The position numbers and the translations under genes were made by a program. The notes beneath the pieces are model-generated. The model had not been told where the DNA came from. It saw nothing but the letters and a program-made list of their open reading frames with translations, and ran no database searches. From the NCBI RefSeq assembly GCF_000442255.1, contig NZ_KE557277.1:150836-214835 (forward strand): 64,000 bases of DNA. Reading direction: 5' to 3'. Of this stretch, positions 2-64,000 are shown in pieces (the first letter of the stretch is position 1; the number at the start of each line of letters is the position of its first letter). The stretch is from Salipiger mucosus DSM 16094 (GTDB lineage: Bacteria > Pseudomonadota > Alphaproteobacteria > Rhodobacterales > Rhodobacteraceae).

Positions 2-697
2 CTGAAGATCATGCTCGACCCCGGCCACGGCGGCATCGACCCGGGCGCACAGCGCGAGGGGGTCCGCGAGAGCGACATCATGCTGACCCTCGCACGCGAA
101 CTGCGCGACGTGCTGCGCCGGGCCGGCTACGACGTGACGCTGAGCCGCGACGCCGACGTCTTCGTCTCCCTGGAGGCGCGCGTGGCCCGCGCGCACGAGG
201 CCGGGGCAGACCTCTTCGTCTCGCTGCATGCCGATGCGATCGAGGAGGGGGCCGCGCACGGCGCCACGGTCTACACGCTGGCCGAAGAGGCGAGCGACGC
301 GGCCTCGGCGGCACTGGCCGAGCGGCACGACCGCGACCAGATCCTCGCGGGGCTGGACCTGAGCGCGACCGACGACCGGGTGGCAGACGTGCTGCTGGAC
401 CTCGCAAGGCTCGACAACGCCCCGCGCAGCCGCGCGCTGGCGCGCGAGCTGGTCGGCGGTATCCGAAACGCGGTGGGCACGGTGCACAAGCGCCCGCTGC
501 GCCACGCGGGCTTTTCCGTGCTCAAGGCCGCCGACATCCCCTCGGTGCTGATCGAGGTCGGCTTCCTGTCGACCGAACGCGACCTGGAGCTTCTCCAGGA
601 CGCCGCATGGCGCGCCAGCATGGCCGCAGGTATCCGCGACGGGATCGCGGCCTGGGCGCTGGAGGATGCGGCACTCGCCCGGTTGCGGCGGCAGTAG
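2..697 (+). CDS. N-acetylmuramoyl-L-alanine amidase, C-terminal part (5' end outside window)
   Basis: Periplasmic zinc amidase of the Amidase_3 family, which cuts the bond between N-acetylmuramic acid and the stem peptide of peptidoglycan and so helps separate daughter cells. The visible part is the catalytic domain. It begins with DPGHGG (first zinc histidine), then the zinc glutamate in GVRESD, the second zinc histidine in SLHAD, and the catalytic glutamate in LIEVGFLS near the end. The reading frame is open to the left edge (LKIMLDPGHGG), so the true start, signal peptide and probable AMIN domain lie upstream. It is followed about 80 bases later by a penicillin-binding protein gene on the same strand, a common pairing of cell-wall genes in this group. 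The family is certain; which amidase paralogue it is cannot be told. Confidence 0.9.
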   Translation: MKIMLDPGHGGIDPGAQREGVRESDIMLTLARELRDVLRRAGYDVTLSRDADVFVSLEARVARAHEAGADLFVSLHADAIEEGAAHGATVYTLAEEASDAASAALAERHDRDQILAGLDLSATDDRVADVLLDLARLDNAPRSRALARELVGGIRNAVGTVHKRPLRHAGFSVLKAADIPSVLIEVGFLSTERDLELLQDAAWRASMAAGIRDGIAAWALEDAALARLRRQ

Positions 698-779
698 CCC
701 GCCGCCTCACGGGGGCTTGTGTTTTGACCCGTGCCCACGCGCGGTATATGGGGGAGGCCAACCTCAAGGGACGTCCATC

Positions 780-3317: not shown

Positions 3318-3328
3318 TCGCGCGGGCG

Positions 3329-3360
3329 GAGGGGCTCTGCCCCTCTGCGGCTGCGCCGCA
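3329..3360 (+). terminator. Two back-to-back hairpins after mrcA
   Basis: Two perfect stem-loops abut: GAGGGGC-TCT-GCCCCTC (3329-3345) and TGCGGC-TGC-GCCGCA (3346-3360). There is no run of T, so this is either a terminator of the Rho-assisted kind or the structured half of a dispersed intergenic element, since the repeat-like block at 3365-3390 follows immediately. Confidence 0.55.
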
Positions 3361-3364
3361 TTCA

Positions 3365-3390
3365 CCCCGGGATATTTGTGGCCAGAAGAT
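3365..3390 (+). repeat. Candidate Rhodobacteraceae intergenic repeat (CCCCGGGATATTT...GCCAGAAGA)
   Basis: The block resembles a short dispersed element that I recall from intergenic spacers of Rhodobacteraceae genomes, where CCCGGGATATTT followed by GGCCAGAAGA often comes after a GC-rich double hairpin, as it does here. I see only one copy in this window, so the repeat status rests on recall and not on a comparison. Confidence 0.4.
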
Positions 3391-3518
3391 GCTTGGTGGC
3401 ACGGGCTCTGCCTGCCGTCACGCATTGCGTTGTTGCGCGGAGCATGCCTGCTGGGGTGATGCGCGGTGTCGTCCCCGGAAACGCTTGCCATTTCCCGCTG
3501 ACGCGTTTTCCTGGGGCA

Positions 3519-4440
3519 ATGGTCAAGCTGGTTCTCTTGCACAAGGCCGACTCGATCTACGAGGATGAGCCTGACGTCGTTTACGATTTTCCGCGCTCCT
3601 ACCTGAAGGCGGTCCGCGAGGGCGTCGGTGACTGGGCGATCTACTACGAGCCCGTGAAGGCCGGCCCGCGCGGCTATTTCGCGGTGGCGAAGATCGAGAG
3701 CGTGGAAGCCAAGCCCGGCGAGGAGGGGCGGTTCCTGGCCATGATCGAGCCGGGAAGTTTCCTGCCGTTCGACAGCGAGGTGCCGCGCCTCCTGGAGGGG
3801 CGGCCGCTGGAATCGGCTTTGAGCGAGACGGATGGCACACCGAAGACCGGCGGTGCGGTTCAGCGCGCCGTGCGGCGGCTGCCCGAAGCGGAGTTCGCCC
3901 GCATCGTCGGACTGGGCCTGCCGCAGGACCTCGAGCGGCGCGAGGCGACGCGCCATGATCCCACCGCATCGGAGTTCGACGACGAGGGGGTGCCCTTCGA
4001 GCGGCCGGTGCTCGAACGGCTCACCCGGCGCCCCTATCGCGACGTGGCCTTTCGCCGGAAGGTACGAGGCCTATGACTACCGCTGTGCCATGTCGGGGCT
4101 GCGGTTGCGCAACGGGGGCGGACGCCCGGAGGTCCAGGCGGCACATATCAAGCCGGTGGAGCAAAAGGGCAGCGACTCGGTGCGTAACGGCCTGGCGCTT
4201 TCGGGGACCCTGCACTGGATGTTCGATCGGGGCCTGATCTCTGTCGCCGAGGATTGCGAGACCATCCTCGTGTCGCGCAACAAGGTGCTGGGGGAGGTGG
4301 TCGACAGGTTGCTCCGGCCGAACCAGCGGCTCTGCCTGCCGCGCGATCCGCGCGACGCGCCGCACCCGGAGAACTTGCGCTGGCATCGCGAGAACGTCTT
4401 TGGCCGGGTGCTGACGGACGAGCAAGCTCCCTGGGAGTAG
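3519..4440 (+). pseudogene. HNH endonuclease gene, broken by a frameshift near 4066
   Basis: Frame one runs from the ATG at 3519 (MVKLVLLHKADS) to a stop at 4076; frame two carries on to 4440 (about RYEAYDYRCAMSGL to EQAPWE). Together they make one protein of about 307 residues of a putative HNH restriction-type endonuclease family. The N-terminal part (SIYEDEP, DFPRSYL, GDWAIYYEP, GYFAVAKI) looks like a modified-base or substrate recognition domain. The C-terminal part has the HNH signatures CAMSGL, AAHIKPV, and NGLALSGTLHWMFDRGL. Restoring a CG dinucleotide at GTACG^AG gives KVREAYDYRC, which fits the family spacing, so the defect looks like loss of one CG unit. Both halves are otherwise well kept, so the break is recent or a sequencing error. 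Confidence 0.75.
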
Positions 4441-48225: not shown

Positions 48226-48591
48226 GTGGAAGAGATGCTGCGGGAGTACCTCCCCATCCTCGTTTTTCTGGGCGTCGCCGTCGGTCTCGGCCTTGTCCTG
48301 ATCCTCGCCGCGGTGGTCCTCGCCGTCAGGCATCCCGACCCCGAGAAGGTGTCGGCCTACGAATGCGGTTTCAACGCCTTCGATGACGCCCGGATGAAGT
48401 TCGACGTCAGGTTCTACCTCGTCTCGATCCTCTTCATCATCTTCGATCTCGAGATCGCCTTCCTGTTCCCCTGGGCCGTGGCCTTCAAGGATGTGAGCAT
48501 GGTCGGCTTCTGGTCGATGATGGTGTTCCTCGGGGTCCTGACCATCGGCTTCGCCTACGAATGGAAGAAGGGGGCACTCGAATGGGAGTGA
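48226..48591 (+). CDS. nuoA: NADH-quinone oxidoreductase subunit A
   Basis: 121-residue membrane subunit of respiratory complex I. Three helices and the loop [20 protein letters not shown], which holds the conserved cysteine that changes exposure between active and resting enzyme. GTG start with AAGGGAG ahead. First gene of the nuo operon; overlaps nuoB by ten bases. Confidence 0.95.
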
Positions 48592-49199
48592 GCGACAAGG
48601 ATCCGCTCGTCACCGAGGTGCAGGGCGACGGCCAGCAGGCCGACCGCGTGAAGTCCGGCCCCTCGGCCAAGGCGGCCTACGGCGAATACGGGGCCGGCTC
48701 GGACCCCGAGGCGGCGACCCAGGCGCTGAACCGCGAGCTCAGCGACAAGGGCTTCCTGCTGACCTCGGTCGACGACGTCATCAACTGGGCGCGCACCGGC
48801 TCGCTGCACTGGATGACCTTCGGTCTCGCCTGCTGCGCGATCGAGATGATGCATACCTCGATGCCGCGCTACGATCTCGAGCGCTTCGGCGCCGCGCCGC
48901 GCGCCAGTCCGCGTCAGTCGGACCTGATGATCGTGGCCGGTACGCTGACCAACAAGATGGCGCCGGCGCTGCGCAAGGTCTACGACCAGATGCCCGAGCC
49001 GCGCTACGTGATCTCGATGGGCTCCTGCGCCAACGGCGGCGGCTACTATCACTACAGCTACTCGGTCGTGCGCGGCTGCGACCGCGTGGTGCCTGTGGAC
49101 GTCTACGTGCCGGGCTGCCCGCCGACGGCCGAGGCGCTGCTCTACGGCATCATGACGCTGCAGAAGAAGATCCGCCGCACCGGCACGATCGTCCGCTGA
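48582..49199 (+). CDS. nuoB: NADH-quinone oxidoreductase subunit B
   Basis: 205-residue subunit holding the last iron-sulfur cluster N2, next to the quinone site. Cluster ligands are the tandem pair in [10 protein letters not shown] and the cysteines in GSCANGGG and [11 protein letters not shown]. The N-terminal 35 residues are an extra polar extension. The ATG lies inside the end of nuoA. Confidence 0.95.
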
Positions 49200-49215
49200 G
49201 GCCCCGGAGGAAGGC

Positions 49216-49827
49216 ATGACCGAAGCACTGAACGAACTGGGCGGCCACATCGAGACCAAGCGTCCCGACTGCGTGCTGGGCTGGGACGTGAGCCATGGCG
49301 AGCTGAACGTCAACGTGGCTCCGGCCAGCATCCTGGGGCTCGTGGAGTTCCTCAAGACCGATCCGACCTGCCGTTTCTCGTCGCTGGTCGACATCACGGC
49401 GGTCGACTACCCGCAGCGGCCCAAGCGCTTCGACGTGGTCTACCACTTCCTGTCGATGTACCAGAACCACCGGATCCGGCTGCGCATGGCGATCCGCGAC
49501 GAGGACATCGTGCCCTCGATCACCGGCGTTCACCCCTCGGCCGACTGGTTCGAGCGAGAGGTTTTCGACATGTTCGGGATCCTTTTCTCGGGCCACCCGG
49601 ACCTGCGGCGAATCCTGACCGACTACGGCTTCCGCGGGCACCCGCTGCGCAAGGACTTCCCGACAACGGGTTACGTCGAACTGCGCTACGACGAAGAGCT
49701 CAAGCGCGTGGTCTACGAGCCGGTGAACCTGGTGCAGGAATACCGGCAGTTCGACTTCATGTCGCCCTGGGAAGGGGCCGAGTACATCCTGCCCGGCGAC
49801 GAGAAGGCCGAGGGGGGCGCAAAGTGA
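49216..49827 (+). CDS. nuoC: NADH-quinone oxidoreductase subunit C
   Basis: 203-residue hydrophilic subunit (30 kDa type). Signature [20 protein letters not shown] and [10 protein letters not shown]. It is separate from NuoD, unlike the fused NuoCD of E. coli. AGGAAGG upstream; its stop overlaps a GTG start of the next small gene. Confidence 0.95.
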
Positions 49828-50027
49828 TGGGCTCTTACGGAATGGGCGGCGGCGGTCTGATCTGGCTGATCGTTCTGGGCGTGCTGGTCGTCGTGCCGTT
49901 CTGGCGCCTGCTGCCGCAGTTCGGCATCCCGGCCTGGGTCTCACTCGTGGCCATCATCCCGCTTGGCGCGCTGATCCTTCTCTGGGTCATGGCGTTCAAG
50001 GACAAGACGAACGGAGGCACTGCGTGA
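49824..50027 (+). CDS. Tiny membrane protein between nuoC and nuoD
   Basis: 67 residues, two hydrophobic helices ([17 protein letters not shown] and [20 protein letters not shown]) joined by a short loop, with a glycine-rich start (GSYGMGGGG). Overlaps the nuoC stop and the nuoD start by four bases each. Possible accessory subunit or assembly factor of complex I. Confidence 0.7.
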
Positions 50028-51247
50028 TGGACGGCTCCAAGGGTTTCGACGACGCGCTCACCGGCGAGCAGCAGATCCGCAACTTCAACATCAACTTCGG
50101 CCCCCAGCACCCGGCGGCGCACGGCGTGCTGCGCCTCGTGCTGGAACTCGACGGCGAGATCGTCGAGCGCGTGGACCCGCACATCGGTCTGCTCCACCGC
50201 GGCACCGAGAAGCTGATGGAGAGCCGGACCTACCTGCAGAACCTGCCGTATTTCGACCGGCTCGACTACGTCGGCACGATGAACCAGGAACACGCCTGGG
50301 TGCTGGCCATCGAGAAGCTGACCGGCACCGAGGTGCCGCGCCGGGCGCAGCTCATCCGCGTGCTCTACTGCGAGATCGGGCGCATCCTGAACCACCTGCT
50401 GAACGTGACCACGCAGGCCATGGACGTTGGCGCGTTGACGCCGCCGCTCTGGGGCTTCGAGGAGCGCGAGAAGCTGATGATCTTCTACGAACGCGCCTGC
50501 GGGGCGCGGCTCCACGCCGCCTATTTCCGTCCCGGGGGCGTGCACCAGGATCTTCCGCCCGAGCTGATCGACGACATCGACGAGTGGTGCCAGGGCTTCC
50601 CGGCCTTCCTCGACGATATCGACGGGCTGCTGACCGAGAACCGGATCTTTAAGCAGCGCAACGCCGACATCGGCGTCGTGACCGAGCAGGACATCCAGGA
50701 TCACGGTTTCTCCGGCGTCATGGTGCGCGGCTCGGGCCTCGCCTGGGACCTGCGGCGCGCGCAGCCCTACGAGTGCTACGACGAGTTCGACTTCAAGATC
50801 CCGGTTGGCAAGAACGGCGACTGCTACGACCGCTACCTCGTCCGCATGGCCGAGATGCGCGAGAGCGTGAAGATCATGAAGCAGGCCTGCGAGAAGCTGA
50901 AGATGCCCGAGAACCAGGGCGACGTGCTCGCGCGGGGCAAGCTGACGCCGCCGAAGCGGTCCGAGATGAAGACCTCGATGGAGGCGCTCATCCACCACTT
51001 CAAGCTCTACACCGAGGGCTTCCACGTGCCCGAGGGCGAGGTCTATGCCGCCGTCGAGGCACCCAAGGGCGAATTCGGCGTCTACCTCGTGGCCGACGGC
51101 ACGAACCGGCCCTACCGCGCCAAGCTGCGCGCGCCGGGCTATCTGCATCTGCAGGCGATGGACCACGTCTGCCGCAATCACCAGCTTGCCGACGTGGCCG
51201 CGATCCTCGGATCGCTGGACATCGTGTTCGGCGAGGTGGACCGCTAA
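50024..51247 (+). CDS. nuoD: NADH-quinone oxidoreductase subunit D
   Basis: 407-residue 49 kDa-type subunit that forms the quinone pocket with Nuo[17 protein letters not shown] and the hydrogenase-like C-terminal end are clear. GTG 50024 (six bases after GGAGG) or ATG 50027 may be the start; the resulting MMDG fits Rhodobacter NuoD. Confidence 0.95.
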
Positions 51248-51304
51248 GACGCTGTGCCGGGGCCGTGGCCCCGTGTAACGACCGAGAAGGAGACGGGACA
51301 CGTG

Positions 51305-51652
51305 ATGGGGAAGACACGCCTGGCGAGTGGCCTGACGTTGATTGGCTTGCTGGCCGCCTGTGCGCTGCCGCCGGAAGGGGTGGAGGACGCCGATCTCGTG
51401 GCCTTTGACGAGGCCGTGGCCTCGGTCGGCTGCGATCTCGTGAGCGAGTCCGATTACCTGCCGGTGGAGTTCCAGACCGGGATGACCCGCCCGATGCTGC
51501 AGGAGATTGCCGGCTACCGGATCGCGACCGACAAGGGTGTCCGGCTCGAGAGCGGCGGCTTCCGCCTGACCTCCGGGCCCTGCGCGCCCACCGCGCCGGC
51601 GACCGAGCCGGCGGCGTTGCCTTCGGAGACGCCCGAGGCGCCCGAGGCATGA
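51305..51652 (+). CDS. Lipoprotein in the nuo operon (after nuoD)
   Basis: 115 residues. Signal ending in the lipobox LAAC (cysteine at about residue 19). The mature part has two more cysteines (SVGCDLV, GPCAPT) and YLPVEFQTGMTRPMLQEIAG; the tail is Pro/Glu/Ala rich. AAGGAG upstream; an in-frame GTG at 51302 is possible. Unknown family; by location a periplasmic complex I accessory protein. Confidence 0.65.
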   Translation: MGKTRLASGLTLIGLLAACALPPEGVEDADLVAFDEAVASVGCDLVSESDYLPVEFQTGMTRPMLQEIAGYRIATDKGVRLESGGFRLTSGPCAPTAPATEPAALPSETPEAPEA

Positions 51653-51747
51653 TTTTCGCGGATGCCCCGATGCGGGGACGCCGAACAGAGACAAACGACG
51701 AACGGGGCGTCATGCGGCGCCCGACAGACCCCGGAGCCTGCTGACCC

Positions 51748-52914
51748 ATGCTGCGCCGACTGCACCCAGACCAGCCCGAAAGCTTCGCCTTCACCCCCGC
51801 CAACCAGGCCTGGGCCGAGGCGCAGATCACCAAGTATCCCGATGGCCGGCAGGCCAGCGCGATCATCCCGCTTCTGTGGCGTGCCCAGGAGCAGGAAGGC
51901 TGGCTCTCGCGGCCGGCGATCGAGCATGTCGCCGACATGCTGGGCCTCGCGCATATCCGCGCGCTCGAGGTGGCGACCTTCTACTTCATGTTCCAGCTTC
52001 AGCCGGTCGGCAGCGTGGCGCACGTCCAGATCTGCGGCACGACCTCCTGCATGATCTGCGGCGCCGAGGACCTGATGGGGGTCTGCAAGGAAAAGATCGC
52101 ACCCAGGGCGCATGAGCTTTCCGCCGACGGCAAGTTCAGCTGGGAAGAGGTCGAGTGCCTCGGGGCCTGTGCGAATGCGCCGATGGCGCAGATCGGCAAG
52201 GACTACTACGAGGACCTCACCGCCGAGCGCCTGTCCGAGATGCTCGACGAGATGGCCGCCGGCAAGGTGCCGACTCCGGGTTCGCAGATCGGACGCTATG
52301 CCTCCGAGCCGGCAGCGGGGCTGACCACCCTCAAGGCCCACGAGGCCGACCGGCCGAAGCACAACGCCGCCGTCGCTCTGGCGACCGAGATCGGCGATAC
52401 GCTCAAGCGCATCGACGGGACCGAGGTGCCGCTGCGCACGCCCTGGCGCGACCGCTCGGACGAAGAGGGCAGCGCCAATCCCGACAAGCACACGCCGAAG
52501 CTGTCCGGCGGTGAGGCGGTAGACGAGACAGGCATCGACAAGCGCGAGGCGCCGGCCGCGGCGAAAGCCCATCCGCCAGCCTCCGCGCCCGCCGAGAGCA
52601 CCGACGACGAGACCGAGGGCACCAAGCCCGAGACGCTCGACGCGCCGCGCGCCGGTGGTGCCGACGATCTCAAGCAGATCAAGGGTGTCGGGCCCAAGCT
52701 CGAAGGGGTCCTGAACGGCCTTGGATTCTTCCACTTCGACCAGATCGCGTCCTGGACCTCGGACGAACTGGCCTGGGTCGACTCGCACCTCGAGGGCTTC
52801 AAGGGCCGCGCCACGCGCGACGACTGGGTCAGCCAGGCCCGCACCCTGTCCGAGGGAGGCGAGACGGAGTTCTCGACGCGTGTTAAGGATGGAGACGTCT
52901 ACGACGAGGACTGA
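51748..52914 (+). CDS. nuoE: NADH-quinone oxidoreductase subunit E with C-terminal helix-hairpin-helix module
   Basis: 388 residues; ordinary NuoE is about 160-240. Residues 1-170 are the 24 kDa-type subunit with 2Fe-2S ligands in [10 protein letters not shown] (first of its cysteines) and [10 protein letters not shown] disordered Ala/Pro/Glu-rich linker (about 215-300) leads to a helix-hairpin-helix module from D306 ([14 protein letters not shown]) to about 375. Nearly the same module ends the next gene. Such extended NuoE proteins recur in Rhodobacteraceae, but the role of the tail is unknown to me. Confidence 0.93.
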
Positions 52915-52949
52915 CGCAGTGACATGAAATGTCCGGGGGGAGGACGGGA

Positions 52950-53729
52950 ATGACGAGTATGACCGAGATCGACGATTGCGCAAAGAAATGCTGGCTGGTC
53001 GCCGCGGCGATCGGTCTGGTGGTGGCCCTCCTTTCGCTGGCGGGCGCCAAGGGCATCCTTGCGGCGCTCGTGCTCGGCGGACTCGCGGCCTTCCTTCTCG
53101 GGCGTGTCTTCATCTGGTTCGCCTGTGCGCCCATCCCGACCGCCGGTGACGGCGCAGCATCGACGGCGCGGACAGGAACGGGCGGTGGCGCCGCCGGTCC
53201 CGCGAGCAGCGTTGCCGGGACGACGGCGGCCTCCGAAACCGCGGCCAAGGTGGCCGAGGCGCGGCGTGCCGATGCCGCGACCGATCCTTCCGCCGATTTG
53301 GGCCCCGCAGCGGCGGCTGCCGGTGTGCCCGGCGCCGCGACGACGGATGCCGGTGCGGCAGAAGAGCCGCTGGTCAAGCCGAGCAAGCCGCTTGCCGGGC
53401 AGGAAGATCTTGCGTCGCGCAAGGGCACATGGAAATACGAGGCCTCTGCCGACGACGCCGACGCGGCGGCCGAGGGAACGCGGCCCACGGCGCTGGAGGC
53501 TCCGCGCGGCGGGAGCGCGGACGACCTCAAGCAGATCAAGGGGGTCGGCCCCAGGCTCGAGGAGCTTCTGCACGAGCTGGGGATCTACCATTTCGACCAG
53601 ATCGCAGGCTGGTCGGCGGACGAGGTCGCCTGGATGGATTCGAACCTCAAGGGGTTCCGCGGCCGCGTGTCGCGTGACGACTGGGTCGGCCAGGCAAAGT
53701 CGCTCGCTTCGGGCGGCGCACAGGAATGA
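52950..53729 (+). CDS. Membrane protein with NuoE-like helix-hairpin-helix tail
   Basis: 259 residues. Two membrane helices near the N-terminus (about 15-60: LVAAAIGLVVALLSLAG and ILAALVLGGLAAFLLG), an Ala/Thr-rich linker (about 70-185), then the helix-hairpin-helix module from D191. By hand alignment about 46 of 70 module residues match the NuoE tail, including [17 protein letters not shown] and RDDWV. GGGGAGGACGGGA precedes ATG 52950. A membrane-bound partner or copy of the NuoE tail is implied. Confidence 0.8.
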   Translation: MTSMTEIDDCAKKCWLVAAAIGLVVALLSLAGAKGILAALVLGGLAAFLLGRVFIWFACAPIPTAGDGAASTARTGTGGGAAGPASSVAGTTAASETAAKVAEARRADAATDPSADLGPAAAAAGVPGAATTDAGAAEEPLVKPSKPLAGQEDLASRKGTWKYEASADDADAAAEGTRPTALEAPRGGSADDLKQIKGVGPRLEELLHELGIYHFDQIAGWSADEVAWMDSNLKGFRGRVSRDDWVGQAKSLASGGAQE

Positions 53730-53740
53730 ACGGAGACGCG

Positions 53741-53959
53741 ATGAGCGGGCAACAGGATCTCAACCGGCAGGGGCGCATCATCGCGCTCGTGATCGCCGGG
53801 ACGGGGCTTGCCTGGATCGCGGCCACGGTACTGGGCAGCGCGCTGGACTGGAGCCAGCGCACAAGGGCCTTTTTCGATCTGGCGGCGCTTGCCGGGTTCG
53901 GGACGGCCATCTGGATGATCTACGGGCTCTGGCGCGCCCGCCAGAAGAACAAGGACTGA
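53741..53959 (+). CDS. DUF5337-type small membrane protein
   Basis: 72 residues with two helices (IIALVIAGTGLAWIAATVLG and FFDLAALAGFGTAIWMIYGL) and a basic tail (RARQKNKD). It matches what I know of DUF5337, a family confined to Rhodobacteraceae nuo operons. GGAG lies upstream of the ATG; it starts eleven bases after the preceding stop and three bases separate its stop from nuoF. Confidence 0.75.
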   Translation: MSGQQDLNRQGRIIALVIAGTGLAWIAATVLGSALDWSQRTRAFFDLAALAGFGTAIWMIYGLWRARQKNKD

Positions 53960-53962
53960 GCG

Positions 53963-55258
53963 ATGCTGAAGGACGAAGATCGCATTTTCACCAACCTCTA
54001 CGGCATGCATGACCGGACCCTGTCGGGCGCGAAGAAGCGCGGGCACTGGGACGCCACCGCGGGCCTGATCGAGAAGGGACGCGACTGGATCGTCGAGGAG
54101 ATGAAGGCCTCTGGCCTGCGCGGCCGCGGCGGCGCAGGTTTCCCGACGGGGCTCAAGTGGTCCTTCATGCCCAAGGAAAGCGACGGCCGCCCCGCCTACC
54201 TGGTGGTGAACGCCGACGAATCCGAGCCGGGCACCTGCAAGGACCGCGAGATCATGCGCCACGATCCGCATACGCTGATCGAGGGCTGCCTGATCGCCTC
54301 CTTCGCGATGAACGCGCACGCCTGCTACATCTACATCCGCGGCGAATACATCCGCGAGCGCGAGGCGCTGCAGGCCGCCATCGACGAGGCCTATGACGCG
54401 GGCCTGCTGGGCAAGAACGCGGCAGGCTCGGGCTGGGATTTCGACCTCTACCTGCACCACGGCGCCGGCGCCTACATCTGCGGCGAGGAAACCGCGCTTC
54501 TGGAAAGCCTCGAGGGCAAGAAGGGCATGCCGCGCATGAAGCCGCCGTTCCCGGCGGGCGCGGGCCTCTATGGCTGCCCGACCACGGTGAACAACGTGGA
54601 ATCCATCGCGGTGGTCCCGACGATCCTGCGCCGCGGCGCAAGCTGGTTCTCGGGCTTCGGCCGTCAGAACAACGCGGGCACCAAGATCTTTGCCGTCTCG
54701 GGCCACGTCAACAATCCCTGCGTCGTCGAAGATGCCATGTCGATCTCCTTCGAGGAACTGATCGACCGGCATTGCGGCGGCATTCGCGGTGGCTGGGACA
54801 ACATCAAGGCGGTGATCCCGGGGGGCTCCTCGGTGCCATGCGTGCGCGGCGAGAACATGCGCGACGCGGTCATGGATTTCGACGCGCTCAAGGAAAAGGG
54901 CTCGAGCCTCGGCACGGCCGCGGTGATCGTGATGGATCAGTCCACCGATATCATCAAGGCGATCTGGCGGCTCTCGAAGTTCTACAAGCACGAGAGCTGC
55001 GGCCAGTGCACGCCCTGCCGCGAGGGCACGGGCTGGATGATGCGCGTGATGGACCGGCTGGTGAAGGGCGAGGCGGAGGTCGACGAGATCGACATGCTCT
55101 TCGACGTCACCAAGCAGGTCGAGGGCCACACCATCTGTGCGCTCGGCGACGCGGCGGCCTGGCCGATCCAGGGCCTGATCCGAAACTTCCGCGACGAGAT
55201 CGAGGACCGGATCAAGGCCCAGAGAACCGGCCGCACGGGCGCCATGGCGGCGGAGTGA
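53963..55258 (+). CDS. nuoF: NADH-quinone oxidoreductase subunit F
   Basis: 431-residue NADH-oxidising subunit. NADH/FMN site [16 protein letters not shown] loop [18 protein letters not shown], and 4Fe-4S ligands in [12 protein letters not shown] plus the distal cysteine in [10 protein letters not shown]. It accepts hydride from NADH and feeds the cluster chain in NuoE and NuoG. Confidence 0.96.
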
Positions 55259-55334
55259 CTCGGGTCATGTGGGCAGACGCGACCAGCAAATGCGGGGCCG
55301 AAGCAGGAAACGGTTCAACGCCGGGACTGGCGGC

Positions 55335-55787
55335 ATGAACGCGGCGGTCCGTATCTCGGCCGGCGCTACGCTTGCCGCCGTTCTGCTGGCCGGCTGCGGC
55401 CCTGCCGGCGGCTCGGGCGGCACCGGAGTTGTCGGTGCGCCTCCGGCCACGGCGCCGCTGGCAGATCGCTGGGCGCATCGCGTGGTCGCGATCTCGGTGG
55501 CCGAGGGCATCGCGGACAAGTGCTACGGCGAGGGGATCTCGCTCGCACCGTCGCAGTGGAATGGGGCCGTGGCCCGCGCGACCGGCGAGCTGGTGGCGCA
55601 GGGGGCCGACCCCGCCGAGCTGGACGCGATCTATGCGGCGCACGACTTCAACGAGACCTCGGCGCAGGCGCAGGCCTGGCTGGCGGCGCGCGGCGCGGTG
55701 CCGGGCGTGCCGGAGAGCCTGTGCACGATCGGGGAACGGGAAATCGCGGACGGCACCGAAGTGGGCCGCCTGCTGCAGACGCTGTGA
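55335..55787 (+). CDS. Lipoprotein, DUF5333-like (first of a pair)
   Basis: 150 residues with lipobox LAGC (cysteine at about residue 21). The mature part resembles the DUF5333 protein at 56295: both have a cysteine early (ADKCYGEG vs RKDCDNLS), an acidic helix, and a second cysteine before an EIADGTEVGRLL / [12 protein letters not shown] end. I take them as paralogues, one lipid-anchored and one secreted. It follows nuoF. Confidence 0.68.
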   Translation: MNAAVRISAGATLAAVLLAGCGPAGGSGGTGVVGAPPATAPLADRWAHRVVAISVAEGIADKCYGEGISLAPSQWNGAVARATGELVAQGADPAELDAIYAAHDFNETSAQAQAWLAARGAVPGVPESLCTIGEREIADGTEVGRLLQTL

Positions 55788-55797
55788 CGAGGATGGC

Positions 55798-56166
55798 ATG
55801 AGCCACGCGATGGGACATCTGGGATCTGGGCTGCGGCTTGCGGCGCTGGCCGGCATCGCCGTGCTGGGGCTGACGGCCTGCAGCGTCTTCGGCAGCCGCG
55901 AGAACCAGATCGAGTACCAGGGCATCCCGTTCAACGGTGATCACCGGGCGCTGCGCGACGACCGCATGTCCTTTGTCGCGACAGCCAAGCCCGCGGATGT
56001 CTCGCTCGACGGTGCGATCCGTGCGGCGGAGTTCGAGGGCGTGAAGTACTGCATTTCGTATATCGGCACTTCGGACATCGACTGGCAGATCGGCCCCGAC
56101 ACGCCGCGCGCGCAGATGCCGGTCTCGGACGGGACGCTGACCTTCCGGGGGACCTGCGTGGAATGA
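55798..56166 (+). CDS. Lipoprotein in the nuo operon (between nuoF and nuoG)
   Basis: 122 residues with lipobox LTAC (cysteine near residue 28). The mature part is strand-rich with YQGIPFNGDHRALRDDRMSF, FEGVKYCISYIGTSDIDW and a final cysteine (FRGTCVE). Position and pattern suggest a beta-sandwich of unknown role. It starts ten bases after the previous stop. Confidence 0.65.
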   Translation: MSHAMGHLGSGLRLAALAGIAVLGLTACSVFGSRENQIEYQGIPFNGDHRALRDDRMSFVATAKPADVSLDGAIRAAEFEGVKYCISYIGTSDIDWQIGPDTPRAQMPVSDGTLTFRGTCVE

Positions 56167-56294
56167 GCCGGGATGCGCCCATATCGGCGGCTCGCTGCGG
56201 CTGTTATTGCCTGACGTCGCGTCGCGGCGCCACCTTCCGGGGTGAAGGAGCCTGCACGCCCGCGGGCTCCGGCAACCGTGACCGGAGAAGTCTC

Positions 56295-56708
56295 ATGCGT
56301 TTCGTGAAACCCCTCGCCCTGGCGACCCTGGTGGGCCTGACCGCCATGCCGGCCGCCGCGACGGCCAAGACCCCGCTGGGCGAGGTCAAGGAAATCCACG
56401 ACGGGCTGATGGCCGTCGGCATCGCCGACCAGCTGCGCAAGGATTGCGACAACCTCAGCGCCCGCATCCTGACGGCCTATGGCTACATCAATTCGCTGAA
56501 GTCCCGCGCGAGCGAGCTTGGCTACAGCGACCAGGAAATCGAGGACTTCGTGACCTCGAAGGACGAAAAGCGGCAGATGCGCGCGGACGGCGAGGCCTAC
56601 CTGCGCGCCCGTGGCGTCGACCCCGAGGACAGCGCGGCCTTCTGTGCCTTCGGCGTGTCCGAGATCGGGGCGGGCACCGCCATCGGCAAGCTGCTGCGGG
56701 AGAACTGA
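56295..56708 (+). CDS. DUF5333 family secreted protein
   Basis: 137 residues: signal peptide (about 1-21, ending AAATA), then a helical domain with two cysteines (DCDNLS and AFCAFG). DUF5333 is a family I know from Rhodobacteraceae nuo operons. GGAGAAG precedes the ATG. Paralogue of the lipoprotein at 55335. Confidence 0.75.
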
Positions 56709-56863
56709 TGCGGGACCGCGCGCTCATAGCCAGTCCGGGCGGGGCGCACCCCGAAAGCGGGGCTCGGGGCGAAACCGGCGGGTTGCGCTCGGCTCCGCGA
56801 CTGACATACGCAGGGGGCGGGCGCCGCCACCTTGCTGGAACATCGCTTCGAAGGACAATGCCA

Positions 56864-58864
56864 ATGACCGATCTGCGCAAGATCATCATCGACGGGATGG
56901 AGATAGAGGTGGATGGGGCGATGACGCTCATCCAGGCCTGCGAGGAAGCCGGCATCGAGGTGCCGCGCTTCTGCTACCACGAGCGGCTGTCGATCGCCGG
57001 CAACTGCCGCATGTGCCTCGTCGAGGTGGTGGGCGGCCCGCCCAAGCCCGCGGCCTCCTGCGCGATGCAGGTGCGCGACCTGCGGCCCGGCAAGGATGGC
57101 ACGCCGCCGACGGTCAAGACCAACTCGCCCATGGTGAAGAAGGCCCGCGAGGGGGTGATGGAGTTTCTGCTCATCAACCACCCGCTCGATTGCCCGATCT
57201 GCGACCAGGGCGGCGAATGCGACCTGCAGGACCAGGCGATGGCCTATGGCGTCGATTTCTCGCGCTACCGCGAGCCCAAGCGCGCGGTGGACGACCTCAA
57301 CCTCGGCCCGCTGGTCGAGACGCACATGACGCGTTGCATCTCCTGCACCCGCTGCGTGCGATTCACCACCGAGGTCGCCGGCATCAGCCAGATGGGCCAG
57401 ACCGGCCGCGGCGAGGACGCCGAGATCACTGCCTACCTTGGCGAGACGCTCGATTCGAACCTGCAGGGCAACATCATCGATCTCTGCCCGGTCGGTGCGC
57501 TGACCTCCAAGCCCTACGCCTTCACCGCGCGCCCTTGGGAGCTCAGCAAGACCGAGTCGATCGACGTGATGGACGCGCTCTGCTCGAACATCCGGGTCGA
57601 TACGAAGGGGCGCGAAGTCATGCGCTTCCTGCCGCGCAACCACGACGGCGTGAACGAGGAATGGATCTCGGACAAGACGCGCTTCGTCTGGGACGGCCTG
57701 CGCCGCCAGCGGCTCGACCGACCCTACGTCCGCGAGAACGGCAAGCTGCGCCCGGCCACCTGGCCCGAGGCGCTCGGCAAGGCGGCCGAGGCGATGAAGG
57801 GGGCCAAGAAGGTGGCAGGCCTCGTCGGCGATCTGGCCCCCGTGGAGGCGGCCTTCTCGCTGAAGCAGATGGTCGAGGGTCTGGGCGGCGCGGTCGAGTG
57901 CCGCACCGACGGCGCCAAGCTGCCCACTGGAAACCGCTCGGGCTATGTCGGCAACGCCGCCATCGAGGATCTGGACACCGCCAAGGAGATCGTCCTGATC
58001 GGCACCAACCCGCGCGACGAGGCCCCGGTGCTGAACGCGCGGATCCGCAAGGCCTGGCTCAATGGTGCCACCGTGCGGGTGATCGGCGCGGCCGCGGATC
58101 TGACCTACGAATACGAGCACATCGGCACCGGCCGCGGCGCCCTTTCGGGCGCCAAGGCGGGTGAGGGGGCCATCGTGATCCTGGGTCAGGGCGCGCTGCA
58201 GGAAGCCGACGGGTCGGCCGTACTCGGCGCCGCGATGGCAATGGCCGAAGCCGCGAAGGGCAGCTTCATGGTCCTGCATACGGCGGCCGGCCGCGTCGGG
58301 GCGATGGACGTGGGCGCCGTGACCGAGGGCGGCATGGACGCCGCCATCGACGGTGCCGACGTGATCTACAACCTGGGCGCCGACGAGGTGGAAATCGCCG
58401 ACGGGCCCTTCGTGATCTACCAGGGCAGCCACGGCGACCGTGGTGCGCACCGGGCCGACGTGATCCTGCCGGGTGCCGCCTACACCGAGGAGAACGGCCT
58501 TTTCGTCAACACCGAGGGTCGTCCGCAGCTGGCGATGCGCGCCGGCTTCGCGCCGGGCGAGGCCAAGGAGAACTGGGCGATCCTGCGGGCGCTTTCGGCC
58601 GAACTGGGTGCCAAGCTGCCCTGGGACAGCCTCGCGCAGCTGCGCCAGGCGCTGGTCAAGGCCGTGCCGCATCTGGCCGAGGTCGACACCGTTCCGGGCA
58701 ACACCTGGACGGCGGTCGAGGCGGGCAAGCTGGGCGATGCCGATTTCCGCTACGCGGTGCGGGATCACTATCTCAGCAACCCGATCGCTCGGTCGAGCGT
58801 GCTCATGGCCGAGCTTTCGGCCAACGCGAAAGAGCGCCGCAACGCGCCGATCGCCGCCGAGTGA
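56864..58864 (+). CDS. nuoG: NADH-quinone oxidoreductase subunit G
   Basis: 666-residue iron-sulfur subunit. N-terminal 2Fe-2S ferredoxin domain ([19 protein letters not shown]), the [15 protein letters not shown] block, 4Fe-4S ligands in [11 protein letters not shown], then a molybdopterin-type domain without cofactor. AAGGA lies eight bases before ATG 56864. It is of the shorter, mitochondrial-like type. Confidence 0.95.
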
Positions 58865-58867
58865 GGA

Positions 58868-59269
58868 ATGTGGGCGCGCTTCGCCATATCCCTCGCCGCG
58901 CTGACAGCGATGCCGGCCTGCGAGACGACGCAGGCCGCGGCGTCCGAGGAGTCTCCGTTCGAGCCGGTCTACGAGGGCATCGAGACCCGGCTGCTGGACG
59001 GGGATCTGGTGAGTTTCCTGGTCGAGATGCGGGGTGCCCGCGACTCGGAGGACGTGGGGCGCTACGCGGAATGCGCGGCCGCGCAGTACGCGCTGATCCG
59101 GGGCTACGGATTCGCGCGGCATTTGCGCACGAATGTGTCGGAAGAGGGTGGCCTCTGGCGCGGGGATGCTGTTTACACCATCTCGGCGGCGCTGCCCCGC
59201 GGGCTCAAGACGATAGACGCGGAAGTCACCGCGCACGCCTGCGCCGAGAACGGAATACCGATGGTGTGA
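58868..59269 (+). CDS. Exported protein in the nuo operon (after nuoG)
   Basis: 133 residues. N-terminal hydrophobic signal ending in AMPAC, a poor lipobox (no Leu at -3), so it may be a lipoprotein or a plain secreted protein. The mature part ([40 protein letters not shown]) loosely resembles the lipoprotein at 55798. Three bases separate it from the nuoG stop. Confidence 0.62.
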
Positions 59270-59279
59270 GGGACACTTG

Positions 59280-60317
59280 ATGGCAGATTTCTTTTCCACC
59301 CCCTTCGGAACCTTCATCATCATCCTGGCGCAGTGCCTCGCGGTCCTGGGCTTCGTGATGATCTCGCTGCTGGTTCTGGTCTATGGCGACCGCAAGATCT
59401 GGGCGGCCGTCCAGATGCGGCGCGGCCCCAACGTCGTCGGCGTCTACGGCATCCTGCAGTCGGTAGCCGATGCGCTGAAATACGTCCTCAAGGAGGTGGT
59501 GGTCCCCGCCGGCGCGGACAAAACTGTCTTCATGATGGCGCCGCTCATCTCCTTCGTGATGGCGGTGCTGGCTTGGGCGGTGATTCCCTTCGCCGACGGC
59601 TGGGTGCTGTCGAACATCAACGTCGCCATCTTGTACGTCTTCGCCATCTCCTCGCTCGAGGTCTACGGCGTGATCATGGGCGGCTGGGCCTCGAACTCGA
59701 AGTATCCCTTCCTCGGCTCGCTGCGCTCGGCCGCGCAGATGATCTCCTACGAGGTCTCCATCGGCCTCATCATCATCGGCGTGATCATCTCGACCGGCTC
59801 GATGAACTTCGGCAGCATTGTCGAGGCTCAGGACGGCCGCTTCGGGCTCTTCTCGTGGTACTGGCTGCCGCACTTCCCAATGGTGTTCCTGTTCTTCATC
59901 TCGGCCCTGGCCGAAACCAACCGCCCGCCCTTCGACCTGCCCGAGGCCGAGTCGGAACTGGTGGCGGGCTACCAGGTGGAATACTCGGCAACGCCCTTCC
60001 TGCTGTTCATGGCAGGCGAGTACATCGCCATCTTCCTGATGTGCGCGCTGACCTCGCTGCTGTTCTTCGGCGGCTGGCTGTCCCCGATCCCGGGGCTGCC
60101 CGATGGCGCGCTCTGGATGGTGGCCAAGATGGGCGTGTTCTTCTTCATCTTCGCGATGGTCAAGGCGATCACTCCGCGCTACCGCTACGACCAGCTGATG
60201 CGCCTGGGCTGGAAGGTCTTCCTTCCGTTCAGCCTGGTCTGGGTGGTCTTCGTGTCCTTCGCCGCGAAATTCGGATGGTTCTGGGGCAGCTTCGCCCGCT
60301 GGACCACGGGAGGTTAA
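59280..60317 (+). CDS. nuoH: NADH-quinone oxidoreductase subunit H
   Basis: 345-residue membrane subunit joining the quinone site to the proton-pumping arm. Eight or nine helices; the cytosolic loop [20 protein letters not shown] is the strong family mark. TTG 59277 precedes ATG 59280; the latter is the more likely start. Confidence 0.95.
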
Positions 60318-60324
60318 GCAAGCA

Positions 60325-60819
60325 ATGGCTAGCATCGACTACGGACGCGCCGCGAGGTATTTCCTGCTCGCGGATGTCTTCAAGGGCTTCGGTCTGGGGC
60401 TGCGCTACTTCTTCAAGCCCAAGCCCACGCTGAACTACCCGCACGAGAAGGGCTACCTTTCGCCGCGCTTCCGCGGCGAGCACGCCCTGCGCCGCTATCC
60501 CAACGGGGAAGAGCGCTGCATCGCCTGCAAGCTCTGCGAGGCGATCTGCCCGGCGCAGGCCATCACCATCGACGCCGAGCCGCGCGATGACGGCAGCCGC
60601 CGCACCACGCGCTACGACATCGACATGACGAAGTGCATCTACTGCGGCTTCTGCCAAGAGGCCTGCCCGGTCGATGCCATCGTCGAGGGGCCCAACTTCG
60701 AGTTCTCGACCGAGACGCGCGAGGAGCTGTTCTACGACAAGGCCAAGCTGCTCGAGAACGGCGAGCGCTGGGAAGCCGAGATCGCCCGCAACCTCGAGTT
60801 GGACGCGCCCTACCGATGA
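60325..60819 (+). CDS. nuoI: NADH-quinone oxidoreductase subunit I
   Basis: 164-residue ferredoxin-like subunit with two 4Fe-4S motifs, [16 protein letters not shown] and [16 protein letters not shown] (clusters N6a and N6b). Carries electrons between NuoG and NuoB. Its stop overlaps the next ATG. Confidence 0.96.
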
Positions 60820-61223
60820 GCGACGGCAAGACCCCCTTCGAGCTGATGATGGCCCAGGCGCAGGAGATGGCGAAGGCCTTCAATCCTGCGCTCGAGTCCT
60901 TCAACCCGAAGGGGTTCGAGAAGCTCTGGCCGACCATGCCCAAAGACGCCATGGAGATGTGGTTCGGCAAGGGCGTGTCGAAGGAGGGGCTCGACGCGAA
61001 AACCCGGCTGCTGCTGACGCTTGCGGGGTTGACGATGCAGGGCGCGCAGGCCGATACGGCGCTGCGCATGACCGTGCGCCACCTGCTCGAGGCCGGCGCC
61101 ACCAAGGACGAGATCGCCGAGACCATCGCACAGATGTCGATGTTCGCCGGCATACCCGCCATGACCCGCGCCATGGAGCTTGCGCGCGAGGTGATGGAAG
61201 ACAGCGAGGATGACGCCAAATGA
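60816..61223 (+). CDS. Carboxymuconolactone decarboxylase-fold protein without cysteines
   Basis: 135 residues in the AhpD/CMD all-helical pattern: [36 protein letters not shown] and [11 protein letters not shown]. AhpD-type peroxidatic CxxC is absent and the protein has no cysteine at all, so it cannot act as AhpD does. The first 35 residues ([20 protein letters not shown]) look like a phasin-like amphipathic helix. ATGA couples it to both nuoI and nuoJ, so a structural or assembly role in complex I is possible. Confidence 0.78.
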
Positions 61224-61822
61224 CCGTGTTCGCATTCTACCTCTTCGCGTTGGCCGCCATCGCGGGGGGCCTTTTCACAGTCATCAGCCGCAACCCGGTG
61301 CACTCGGTGCTCTGGCTGATCCTGGCCTTCCTCTCGGCGGCGGGGCTCTTCGTGCTGCTGGGCGCGGAATTCGTGGCGATGCTGCTGATCATCGTCTACG
61401 TGGGCGCGGTCGCGGTGCTGTTCCTCTTCGTGGTGATGATGCTCGACGTCGATTTCGCCGAGTTGAGGGCAGGCATGGCCAAGTACATGCCCCTGGCGCT
61501 GCTGATCGGTCTGATCGTCCTGATGGAGCTCGGCATGGCGCTCGGCGCCTGGCAGAGCTCGGAGGCGGCCGCAGGCCAGCTTTCGGCGCCGACGCCCACC
61601 GAGATGCACAACACCGCCGCGCTGGGTGTGCTGCTCTATGACCGCTATTTCCTCCTGTTCCAGCTTGCCGGCCTGATCCTGCTGGTGTCGATGATCGGCG
61701 CCATCGTGCTGACGCTGCGCCACCGCGCCGACGTCAAGCGCCAGGACGTGCTCGCCCAGATGTGGCGCGACCCGGCCAAGGCGATGGAACTGAAGGACGT
61801 GAAACCGGGGCAGGGGCTCTAG
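61220..61822 (+). CDS. nuoJ: NADH-quinone oxidoreductase subunit J
   Basis: 200-residue membrane subunit with five helices; [20 protein letters not shown] is the family mark around the pi-bulge helix. The tail RRAD-like cytosolic end ([18 protein letters not shown]) is long. Overlaps the preceding gene by ATGA. Confidence 0.95.
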
Positions 61823-61843
61823 GCCCCGCCACCGCACACGCGC

Positions 61844-61950
61844 GCCCCGGGCCACCCCGGGGCACTGCTTCCGGCCCGGCCGGGAGAGGGAACCTCGGGG
61901 GTCCGCCAAGACGGGCTCCGGCAAAGACAATTGCCCCCGCAACAGGGGGC
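61844..61950 (+). repeat. Two hairpins between nuoJ and nuoK
   Basis: GCCCCGGG-CCAC-CCCGGGGC (61844-61863) and GCCCCC-GCAACA-GGGGGC (61933-61950). The nuoJ-nuoK gap of 144 bases before the 33-codon frame holds only these. They probably shape mRNA stability and not termination, since the operon continues. Confidence 0.55.
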
Positions 61951-61966
61951 GGGAAGTGGGACAGCG

Positions 61967-62068
61967 ATGAGCATAGCCAGTTGGATAGCCATCTTCTTCG
62001 CGGGGATCTTCGTTCCCGTGGTCCTGGGCGCGGCCGGGGGCCGCAAGCGGAACGGAGATCGCACATGA
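61967..62068 (+). CDS. 33-residue membrane miniprotein coupled to nuoK
   Basis: Short frame starting [17 protein letters not shown]: one membrane helix (about residues 3-24) followed by a basic tail with [10 protein letters not shown]. Its stop overlaps the nuoK ATG (ATGA), as for several other nuo spacers, and GGGAAG lies about ten bases upstream of the ATG. Length alone makes it easily missed. It may be a supernumerary subunit or only a coupling leader for nuoK. Confidence 0.55.
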
Positions 62069-62370
62069 TCGGGTTGGAGCATTACCTCACGGTGGCGGCG
62101 GTGCTGTTCGTCATCGGCATCTTCGGCATCTTCCTGAACCGGAAGAACGTCATCATCCTGCTGATGTCGATCGAGCTGATCCTGCTCTCGGTGAACATCA
62201 ACTTCGTCGCCTTCTCTTCGTTCCTCGGTGATCTCGCGGGACAGGTCTTCACGCTCTTCGTGCTGACCGTCGCGGCGGCCGAGGCGGCGATCGGCCTCGC
62301 GATCCTTGTCTGCTTCTTCCGCAACCGCGGCACCATCGCCGTGGAAGACGTCAACGTGATGAAAGGCTGA
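62065..62370 (+). CDS. nuoK: NADH-quinone oxidoreductase subunit K
   Basis: 101-residue three-helix membrane subunit, MrpC-like. Conserved glutamates lie in the middle of helices 2 and 3 ([18 protein letters not shown] and [14 protein letters not shown]). CGGAGA upstream. Translationally coupled to the 33-residue frame. Confidence 0.95.
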
Positions 62371-62375
62371 GCCGC

Positions 62376-64000
62376 ATGGAGACGATCATCCTCTTCGCCC
62401 CGCTGGTGGGCGCGCTCATCGCGGGCTTCGGCTGGCGCTTCATCGGCGAGACCGGCGCGCAGTGGGTCACCACCGGCCTGCTGTTCCTGGCCTGCCTGCT
62501 GTCGTGGATCGTGTTCTTCACGCTGGGCGAGGCCGAGAGCATCTCGCTCTTCCGCTTCATCGAGAGCGGCACGCTCAGCACCGACTGGGCGATCCGCTCG
62601 GACCGGCTGACCGCGATCATGCTGATCGTCGTGACGACGGTCTCGGCGCTCGTGCACCTCTACAGCTTCGGCTACATGGCGCATGACGAGAACTTCCGCG
62701 CCGGCGAAAGCTACAAGCCGCGCTTTTTCGCCTACCTGTCCTTCTTCACCTTCGCGATGCTCGCGCTGGTGACCTCGGACAATCTGGTGCAGATGTTCTT
62801 TGGCTGGGAAGGCGTCGGCGTCGCATCCTACCTGCTGATCGGCTTCTACTACCGCAAGCCCTCGGCCAACGCGGCGGCGATGAAAGCCTTCATCGTGAAC
62901 CGCGTCGGCGACTTCGGCTTCGCGCTGGGGATCTTCGGACTGTTCTACCTGACCGACAGCATCAACCTCGACGACGTCTTCGCCGCCGCACCGCAGCTGG
63001 CCGAAACCCAGCTCACCTTCCTCTGGACCGAGTGGAACGCGGCGAACCTGCTGGCCTTCCTGCTCTTCGTGGGCGCCATGGGCAAATCGGCGCAGCTGCT
63101 GCTGCACACCTGGCTGCCCGACGCAATGGAAGGCCCGACGCCGGTCTCGGCACTGATCCACGCGGCCACCATGGTGACCGCCGGCGTCTTCCTCGTCTGC
63201 CGCATGTCGCCGCTGATGGAATACGCACCCGATGCGATGGCCTTCGTCACCTTCCTGGGCGCCGCCACAGCCTTCTTCGCGGCGACGGTCGGCCTAGTGC
63301 AGAACGACATCAAGCGCGTCATCGCCTATTCGACCTGTTCGCAGCTCGGCTACATGTTCGTGGCCGCGGGCGTGGGGGTCTATTCGGTGGCGATGTTCCA
63401 CCTCTTCACGCACGCCTTCTTCAAGGCCATGCTCTTCCTCGGCGCCGGCTCGGTGATCCACGGGATGCACCACGAGCAGGACATGCGGAACTACGGCGGC
63501 CTGAAGGACAAGCTTCCCTACACCTTCTGGGCGATGATGATCGGCACGCTGGCGATCACCGGCGTGGGCATCCCGCTCACCGGCTGGTTCGGCTTCGCGG
63601 GCTTCGTGTCCAAGGACGCGATCATCGAGAGCGCCTGGGCCGGCACCGACGGCGGCTTCGCCTTCTGGGCTCTGGTCATCGCGGCGCTGTTCACCAGCTT
63701 CTATTCCTGGCGGCTGATGTTCATGACCTTCTGGGGCAAGCCGCGCGGCGACAAGCACACGCACGAGCATGCACATGAATCCCCGCGGGTCATGCTGATC
63801 CCGCTCGGCGTGCTGGCCGTGGGTGCGGTTTTTGCCGGGATGCTGTGGTACGGCGTCTTCTTCGGCGACCACGACAAGGTCACCCGCTGGTTCGGCATGC
63901 CTGCGCATCACGCCGAAGCCTCCGAAGGTGATCACGGCGAGGAAGCCGCAGCCGAGGGCGGCGCGGAAACGGCGGCTGCCGACACCGAAGAGGGTGGCGA
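62376..64000 (+). CDS. nuoL: NADH-quinone oxidoreductase subunit L, 5' part (cut by window end)
   Basis: About 541 residues of the antiporter-like proton-pumping subunit, which usually has 600-720. Clear marks are [40 protein letters not shown] with its proton-channel lysine and glutamate residues, and [21 protein letters not shown] His-rich loop ([12 protein letters not shown]) and a Glu/Ala-rich stretch near the window end ([13 protein letters not shown]) are unusual for NuoL. The stop lies beyond 64000. Confidence 0.95.

Follow-up and report, generated by a model that had tools for sequence, protein, structure and literature searches.

The last 15.8 kb of the stretch of the Salipiger mucosus DSM 16094 genome analyzed here (contig NZ_KE557277.1, positions 150,836 to 214,835; the whole 64,000 nucleotides are hereafter called the window) carry the genes of complex I from nuoA to nuoL in their usual order and on one strand. 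Interspersed between nuoA (48226) and nuoL are ten extra open reading frames (ORFs), all on the plus strand and without internal stops, each found where a preliminary description made from the sequence alone had placed it (Table 1). Neighboring genes share four nucleotides at six junctions, with GTGA at the starts 49824 and 50024 and ATGA at 53726, 60816, 61220, and 62065, the overlap at 53726 existing only if the DUF5337 gene starts there and not at 53741, as first read. Five of the accessory families proved to be largely fixed in the complex I operons of the order Rhodobacterales, and the reading that we prefer, with a probability of about 0.5, is that this Rhodobacteraceae operon carries an order-specific accessory set that is synthesized along with complex I but forms no part of the enzyme as isolated.

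Table 1. Complex I genes and accessory ORFs of the window, in order of position
Feature	Coordinates	Strand	Evidence or remark
nuoA	48226-48591	+	core subunit
nuoB	48582-49199	+	core subunit
nuoC	49216-49827	+	core subunit
small membrane protein, about two transmembrane helices by eye	49824-50027	+	GTGA overlap at each end; no Pfam family over cut-off
nuoD	50024-51247	+	core subunit
small lipoprotein (LLAAC), nuoD-nuoE gap	51305-51652	+	neither Pfam nor NCBIfam gave a match at E 1
nuoE with C-terminal helix-hairpin-helix (HhH) extension, 388 amino acids	51748-52914	+	NCBIfam PRK12373 over cut-off
protein-O counterpart (by sequence): transmembrane hairpin (Cys10, Cys14, Cys59), linker, HhH domain	52950-53729	+	8yy9_O, E 3.8e-40
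DUF5337 membrane protein	53726 (or 53741)-53959	+	PF17272, 99.6 bits (cut-off 27)
nuoF	53963-55258	+	core subunit
DUF5333 paralogue, lipobox-like LLAGC	55335-55787	+	PF17267, 47.7 bits (cut-off 27)
lipoprotein, nuoF-nuoG gap	55798-56166	+	invariant C28 (lipobox), C85, C120
DUF5333, exported, adjoins nuoG	56295-56708	+	PF17267, 130.7 bits (cut-off 27); two invariant cysteines
nuoG	56864-58864	+	core subunit
lipoprotein, nuoG-nuoH gap	58868-59269	+	invariant C18 (lipobox), C69, C125
nuoH	59277-60317	+	core subunit
nuoI	60325-60819	+	core subunit
cysteine-free CMD-family protein	60816-61223	+	PF02627, 58.3 bits (cut-off 23); ATGA overlap at each end
nuoJ	61220-61822	+	core subunit
single-helix ORF, 33 amino acids	61967-62068	+	ATGA overlap with nuoK; lineage-restricted
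nuoK	62065-62370	+	core subunit
nuoL	62376 to 64000, runs off the window	+	core subunit

The accessory genes were surveyed in 160 operon stretches, of which 80 came from an order-wide genome draw (L032-L111, one genome for most genera, the 11 genomes drawn that were DUF5333-negative all being included) and 80 were found with a NuoE query (L112-L191) and are therefore biased towards operons resembling that of the window. ORFs in the gaps between core genes were called with a simple home-made gene caller, families were then scored by profile searches, and family counts refer to the loci in which both flanking core genes were present. State changes are given as the minimum number that a tree comprising 123 distinct operons requires. 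The core genes were found in order from nuoA to nuoK in 159 of the 160 loci; the remaining one, L051, has no nuo gene and was left out, together with loci lacking a flanking core gene and four duplicate operons.

Nine of the ten accessory ORFs belong to families that were found again in the corresponding gap elsewhere in the Rhodobacterales. The tenth, the 33-residue ORF at 61967, has near relatives only (of six examined, L034, L112, and L128 have look-alikes in which the start is conserved). The DUF5337 family holds the same gap in 149 of 153 loci (74/78 in the order-wide set), the CMD family in 129 of 138 (70/78), the lipoprotein family of 58868 in 132 of 143 (69/78), DUF5333 in 128 of 147 (67/78), and protein-O, the family of 52950, in 124 of 153 (54/78); DUF5333 was also found in 138 of the 149 genomes of the order as drawn. 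The other families are sparser, with 93 of 147 loci (36/78) for the 55798 family, 75 of 155 (25/77) for the 51305 family, and 52 of 143 (19/69) for the 49824 family. On the tree, DUF5337 needs at least 2 changes, the NuoE extension 6, DUF5333 and CMD 7 each, and the 58868 family 8, followed by the 55798 family (13), the 51305 family (17), protein-O (18), and the 49824 family (24). Protein-O, DUF5337, DUF5333, the nuoG-nuoH lipoprotein, and the cysteine-free CMD protein form a stable set that is largely fixed in the Rhodobacterales, which bears out the earlier view of them as accessory genes of the complex I operon.

Around the stable set lies a changing pool of unrelated genes on the same strand. 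Gap lengths range from overlaps to almost 4 kb (6 to 3867 in the nuoF-nuoG gap), and the 1256 ORFs called in the gaps of 158 loci, 1234 of them on the operon strand, fall into 172 clusters with 122 singletons. It is conceivable, and a tentative explanation that comes not far behind because the same gaps accept many unrelated genes, that all the accessory genes are passengers without any function in complex I, collected by a long, steadily expressed operon because they gain from co-expression. The near-uniform orientation of the clusters fits such an origin, as does the unrelatedness of the three cluster examples that passed a Pfam cut-off among ten scanned as fragments (DUF3291, MAPEG, and Lumazine_bd_2), and protein-O has been found in another complex. 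Passengers would hardly be expected, however, to stay in one and the same gap, as the five stable families do in 81-97% of the scorable loci, and four of these five change little on the tree in comparison with the 49824 family and protein-O.

Among the occupants of the gaps, a DUF3291 protein was seen between nuoF and nuoG in 36 loci and a MAPEG protein in 19, while the nuoC-nuoD gap holds a sulfotransferase-like protein in 23 loci (by reading, the fragment having no Pfam match), a lumazine-binding-like protein in 9, and a GFA-like protein, below the cut-off, in 6. CMD genes were scored twice in L038, L042, L053, and L109 (once in the window). Downstream of nuoL, the genome of the window continues with ORFs read as nuoM, nuoN, birA, coaX, and RNase J (L230). 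This genome (5.69 Mb, 30 contigs, 97.5% complete) has a single match to NADHdh, the NuoH family, and the closest named operons by NuoE belong to Salipiger and Alloyangia (74-76% identity). The nuoG stop and the start at 58868 are 3 nt apart.

No Pfam family over its cut-off was found for the accessory ORFs other than 55335, 56295, 53741, and 60816 (61967 was outside the scan). DUF5333 is present in two copies, 55335 and 56295, the close relatives of the former making up a small cluster of 7 sequences, including that of the window. Half of the ten proteins look exported, as had been claimed, with a lipobox or a signal predicted from sequence patterns. In the alignments made after length and redundancy filtering (57/57 stretches for DUF5333, 62/62 for the 58868 family, and 41/57 for the 55798 family, each plus the window), the lipobox cysteine and two further cysteines are invariant in the 58868 family (C18, C69, and C125; 63 rows, 60% mean column identity) and in the 55798 family (C28, C85, and C120; 42 rows), and DUF5333 has an invariant pair (C30 and C96, counting from the first residue of the aligned stretch). 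These pairs may form disulphides. A loose pattern found the lipobox in 124 of 132 loci for the 58868 family, 89 of 93 for the 55798 family, 54 of 77 for the 51305 family, and just 11 of 128 for DUF5333. With a lipobox cysteine following a hydrophobic signal, the 58868 and 55798 families are predicted lipoproteins. They are distantly related to each other (profile comparison, 90% probability), which sorts the five exported proteins into three groups, namely DUF5333 (twice), the related 55798 and 58868, and 51305. Between DUF5333 and the 55798 family, profile comparison gave no relation (6%). The predicted folds of DUF5333 (pLDDT 95.1) and 58868 (pLDDT 89.3) matched no PDB structure at E 0.001 or below; the top matches for 58868, to an ACT-like domain (TM-score about 0.35, E 0.015), do not suffice to assign a fold.

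The protein at 60816 was likewise described correctly as a CMD-fold protein free of cysteine: its 135 residues include none, it passes the PF02627 cut-off, and its closest solved chain is 2af7_A. AhpD-type peroxidases, a branch of the CMD family, have a CxxC active site, which 60816 lacks, and its score against the PcaC model (TIGR02425) is 48.8 bits, far under the equivalog cut-off of 155.7.

To follow the range of the families, 289 alphaproteobacteria were drawn, of which 4 belong to the same family as the window and 285 do not; in one of the range searches, many genomes had their first-look candidates scored only in part. At E 0.001, DUF5333 was found in the 4 genomes of the family and in 0 of the 285 outside it, and the 58868 family in 3 genomes inside it and none outside, while DUF5337 was found in the 4 genomes and over its cut-off in 0 of the 285, with two matches below it. 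In the genomes drawn, these three families are confined to the order. The CMD protein was found at E 1e-15 in the 4 genomes of the family and in 2 outside it, where the matches share 33-37% identity and have no nuo genes in the surrounding 3.3 kb. The parallel with mitochondrial complex I suggested by the preliminary description, as far as it was one of descent, is not supported, as DUF5333, DUF5337, and the 58868 family pass no cut-off in the 285 outside genomes.

Unidentified reading frames in the nqo operon of Paracoccus denitrificans were reportedly described in papers of the 1990s. One genome of our collection (G457) encodes a NuoE identical to that of P. denitrificans (PDB 8QBY) over 233/233 residues and was taken to be this species. 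Its operon (L196) has the same core order as that of the window and carries protein-O, DUF5337, DUF5333, CMD, and the nuoG-nuoH lipoprotein, each in the corresponding gap; the lipoprotein has a lipobox, and its N-terminal part is longer. In contrast to the window, profiles found no relative of 49824, 51305, or 55798 and no second DUF5333 in it, and the solved NuoE, of 239 residues, is without the HhH extension. Between nuoI and nuoJ, a tandem CMD pair (L196 14142-14941, operon strand) stands where the window has one gene.

The 2.3-angstrom structure of P. denitrificans complex I is described, in the available part of the paper, as comprising 14 core subunits, the three mitochondrial-type subunits NDUFS4, NDUFS6, and NDUFA12, and a methyltransferase (CI-PIMT) (PMC11522691); the operon families are not among them. 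Since all five stable families are present in the operon of G457 and absent from this description, the earlier proposal that the accessory proteins are stoichiometric supernumerary subunits is not supported, and we rejected it as the main explanation. Operon position, 4-nt overlaps, and order-wide conservation would suit such subunits, and one PDB chain, 9wqv_a, named 'NADH:ubiquinone oxidoreductase 41 kd complex i subunit', does match protein-O (E 8.4e-34). The NuoE search listed no other chain of this entry, however, so we did not take 9wqv as a complex I structure, which it probably is not, and PDB sequence searches with six families (all but 49824, 51305, and 61967) returned no recognized complex I chain. 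We consider the subunit explanation improbable.

The ORF at 52950 had been described as a membrane HhH protein, which holds, and as a candidate complex I component, in place of which it is, judging from sequence and gene position, the syntenic counterpart of protein-O. This protein is a new subunit of the reaction centre-light-harvesting 1 (RC-LH1) complex of Dinoroseobacter shibae (PDB 8YY9), encoded between nuoE and nuoF and left without an assigned function, and its Cys10-Cys59 disulphide has been observed (PMC12079452, available part). The 52950 protein has the same make-up, a transmembrane hairpin with cysteines at its ends (about positions 10, 14, and 59) and a homologous C-terminal HhH domain, and its gene occupies the same gap; its match to chain O runs via the C-terminal domain, and the hairpin aligns weakly with the cysteines in register.

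An explanation that we regard as very unlikely is that protein-O, and perhaps others of the set, serve RC-LH1 and lie among the nuo genes for their expression alone. Apart from the structural role in D. shibae, the genome of the window has two PF00124 genes in an array read as pufBALMC (L229, G000:C13:140001-156000), whereas the two other genomes of its genus in the draw lack PF00124. With phototrophy scored as the presence of PF00124 (in the NuoE-query set for 49 of 50 genomes, out of 80 loci), protein-O was found in 44 of 48 phototrophs, compared with 52 of 75 non-phototrophs (Fisher P 0.0035), and DUF5333 was likewise commoner in phototrophs (Fisher P 0.0047), neither value being corrected for descent. 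In a tree-aware pair test, however, protein-O and phototrophy showed no significant direction (median p 0.625; 0.25 in a smaller set), and about 16 of 20 independent tree pairs differed in phototrophy without differing in protein-O. Light harvesting is not the only role of protein-O, as it is kept in those 52 genomes without reaction-centre genes, two of which belong to the window's genus (L033 and L034), and a purely photosystem-bound reading was rejected on this ground. G457, taken to be P. denitrificans and presumably a non-phototroph, carries it as well.

The conservation of protein-O along its length points in the same direction. In 38 of the 58 protein-O frames of the order-wide set (16 without the HhH motif and 4 without a scored hairpin were dropped), the median identity was 64% for the HhH domain and 24% for the hairpin, compared with 87% for NuoF. 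Conservation is thus lowest in the hairpin, which touches RC-LH1, and the conserved job seems to lie in the cytosolic HhH domain. Among the hairpins scored, 15 of 17 from non-phototrophs and 11 of 21 from phototrophs retain the cysteine pair. Studies of protein-O in non-phototrophs were not among the titles found by our literature search.

The C-terminal domain of NuoE recurs in 52950 (65% identity). The NuoE extension was detected by profile in 145 of 158 loci and in at least 150 after five search-range misses were mended (L137, L146, L147, L154, and L170, in which the extension was aligned in the NuoE search), with 8 loci remaining without it. In the draw of 289 alphaproteobacteria, the domain was found in the 4 genomes of the window's family and in 21 outside it, where it ends NuoE (e.g., L202, L207, L226, and L227). 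In others of these genomes, it ends ribosomal proteins read as L21 (L203, L204, L208, and L221) and S2 (L219), and in several more it stands on proteins that are anchored in the membrane at the N-terminus; the NCBIfam models for L21, S2, and a phasin also match it, but with scores under their cut-offs. A second HhH protein with a phasin-like N-terminal part lies in the nuoE-nuoF gap of L047 (4459-5070, operon strand) and L086 (4921-5514, operon strand), and a third HhH domain in the genome of the window is cut by a contig end (L228, G000:C12).

A further and highly improbable explanation takes the HhH domain of NuoE and protein-O as a membrane-organizing adaptor that joins complex I with partners bearing the same domain, which its occurrence, by reading, on L21, S2, and membrane-anchored proteins and its conservation in protein-O would suit, but NuoE does without it in those 8 loci and its GVGP hairpin could bind nucleic acid instead, as HhH motifs do. 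Only slightly less doubtful is the idea that HhH is an adaptor between energy-transducing complexes, with protein-O in or beside complex I and, in phototrophs, in RC-LH1. If the adaptor existed, complex I and the photosystem could share one membrane patch with local exchange of ubiquinone, and the L21, S2, and membrane-anchored carriers would make HhH a general membrane-tethering module.

Under the reading that we prefer, an accessory set made in step with complex I, several members are probably made in proportion to the enzyme, as their translational coupling to complex I subunit genes through the 4-nt overlaps implies. The exported members would act transiently at the periplasmic face, in assembly, in quality control or upkeep, or in membrane organization, a role suggested by their place and conservation. 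Protein-O may be a general membrane hairpin or organizer used by more than one complex, its cytosolic HhH domain doing the conserved job, and phototrophs may additionally place it in RC-LH1. The lineage-specific genes around the stable set would be passengers.

Several observations weigh against this reading. The accessory proteins diverge much faster than the core, with median identities of 24-64% compared with 74-91% for nine core subunits, and the state of protein-O changes at least 18 times on the tree. In L051 (genome G020), a DUF5333 homologue was found without any nuo gene in the surrounding 20 kb. Conversely, L094 and L096 keep complex I although profiles detect none of the five stable families; the nuoE-nuoF and nuoG-nuoH gaps of L096 nevertheless contain ORFs that resemble the protein-O hairpin and a 58868-type lipoprotein and were missed by the profiles, so some of the scored absences may be divergence. 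The role as transient helpers is itself suggested by nothing beyond location and conservation. As for the P. denitrificans enzyme, its authors report complex I particles without the distal membrane subdomain (PMC11522691), and an earlier purification paper reports further proteins with varying confidence in a mass-spectrometry table (PMC8115037), each as far as the available text goes; loosely bound periplasmic proteins, lipoproteins above all, could have been lost during purification. In R. sphaeroides, transposon sequencing found nuoA to nuoN essential on LB, and no accessory gene is named in the available part of that paper (PMC5513736).

In the literature searched, we found no paper that assigns roles to the additional frames in complex I operons of the Paracoccus type and no mention of 'DUF5333' or 'DUF5337', nor is anything said on these frames in the accessible parts of PMC9696053, PMC4859585, and the review PMC12654162. 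The operon carries an under-explored, order-specific gene set, one accessory gene of which already has a published, different home. Separating the stable set from the pool that turns over around it picks out the five families for a first functional study. The retention of protein-O in genomes without reaction centres bears on the question left by the D. shibae study of whether the bacterium had the protein originally or recruited it later (PMC12079452): protein-O looks like a long-standing member of the complex I operon, for which the place in RC-LH1 is one use among others.

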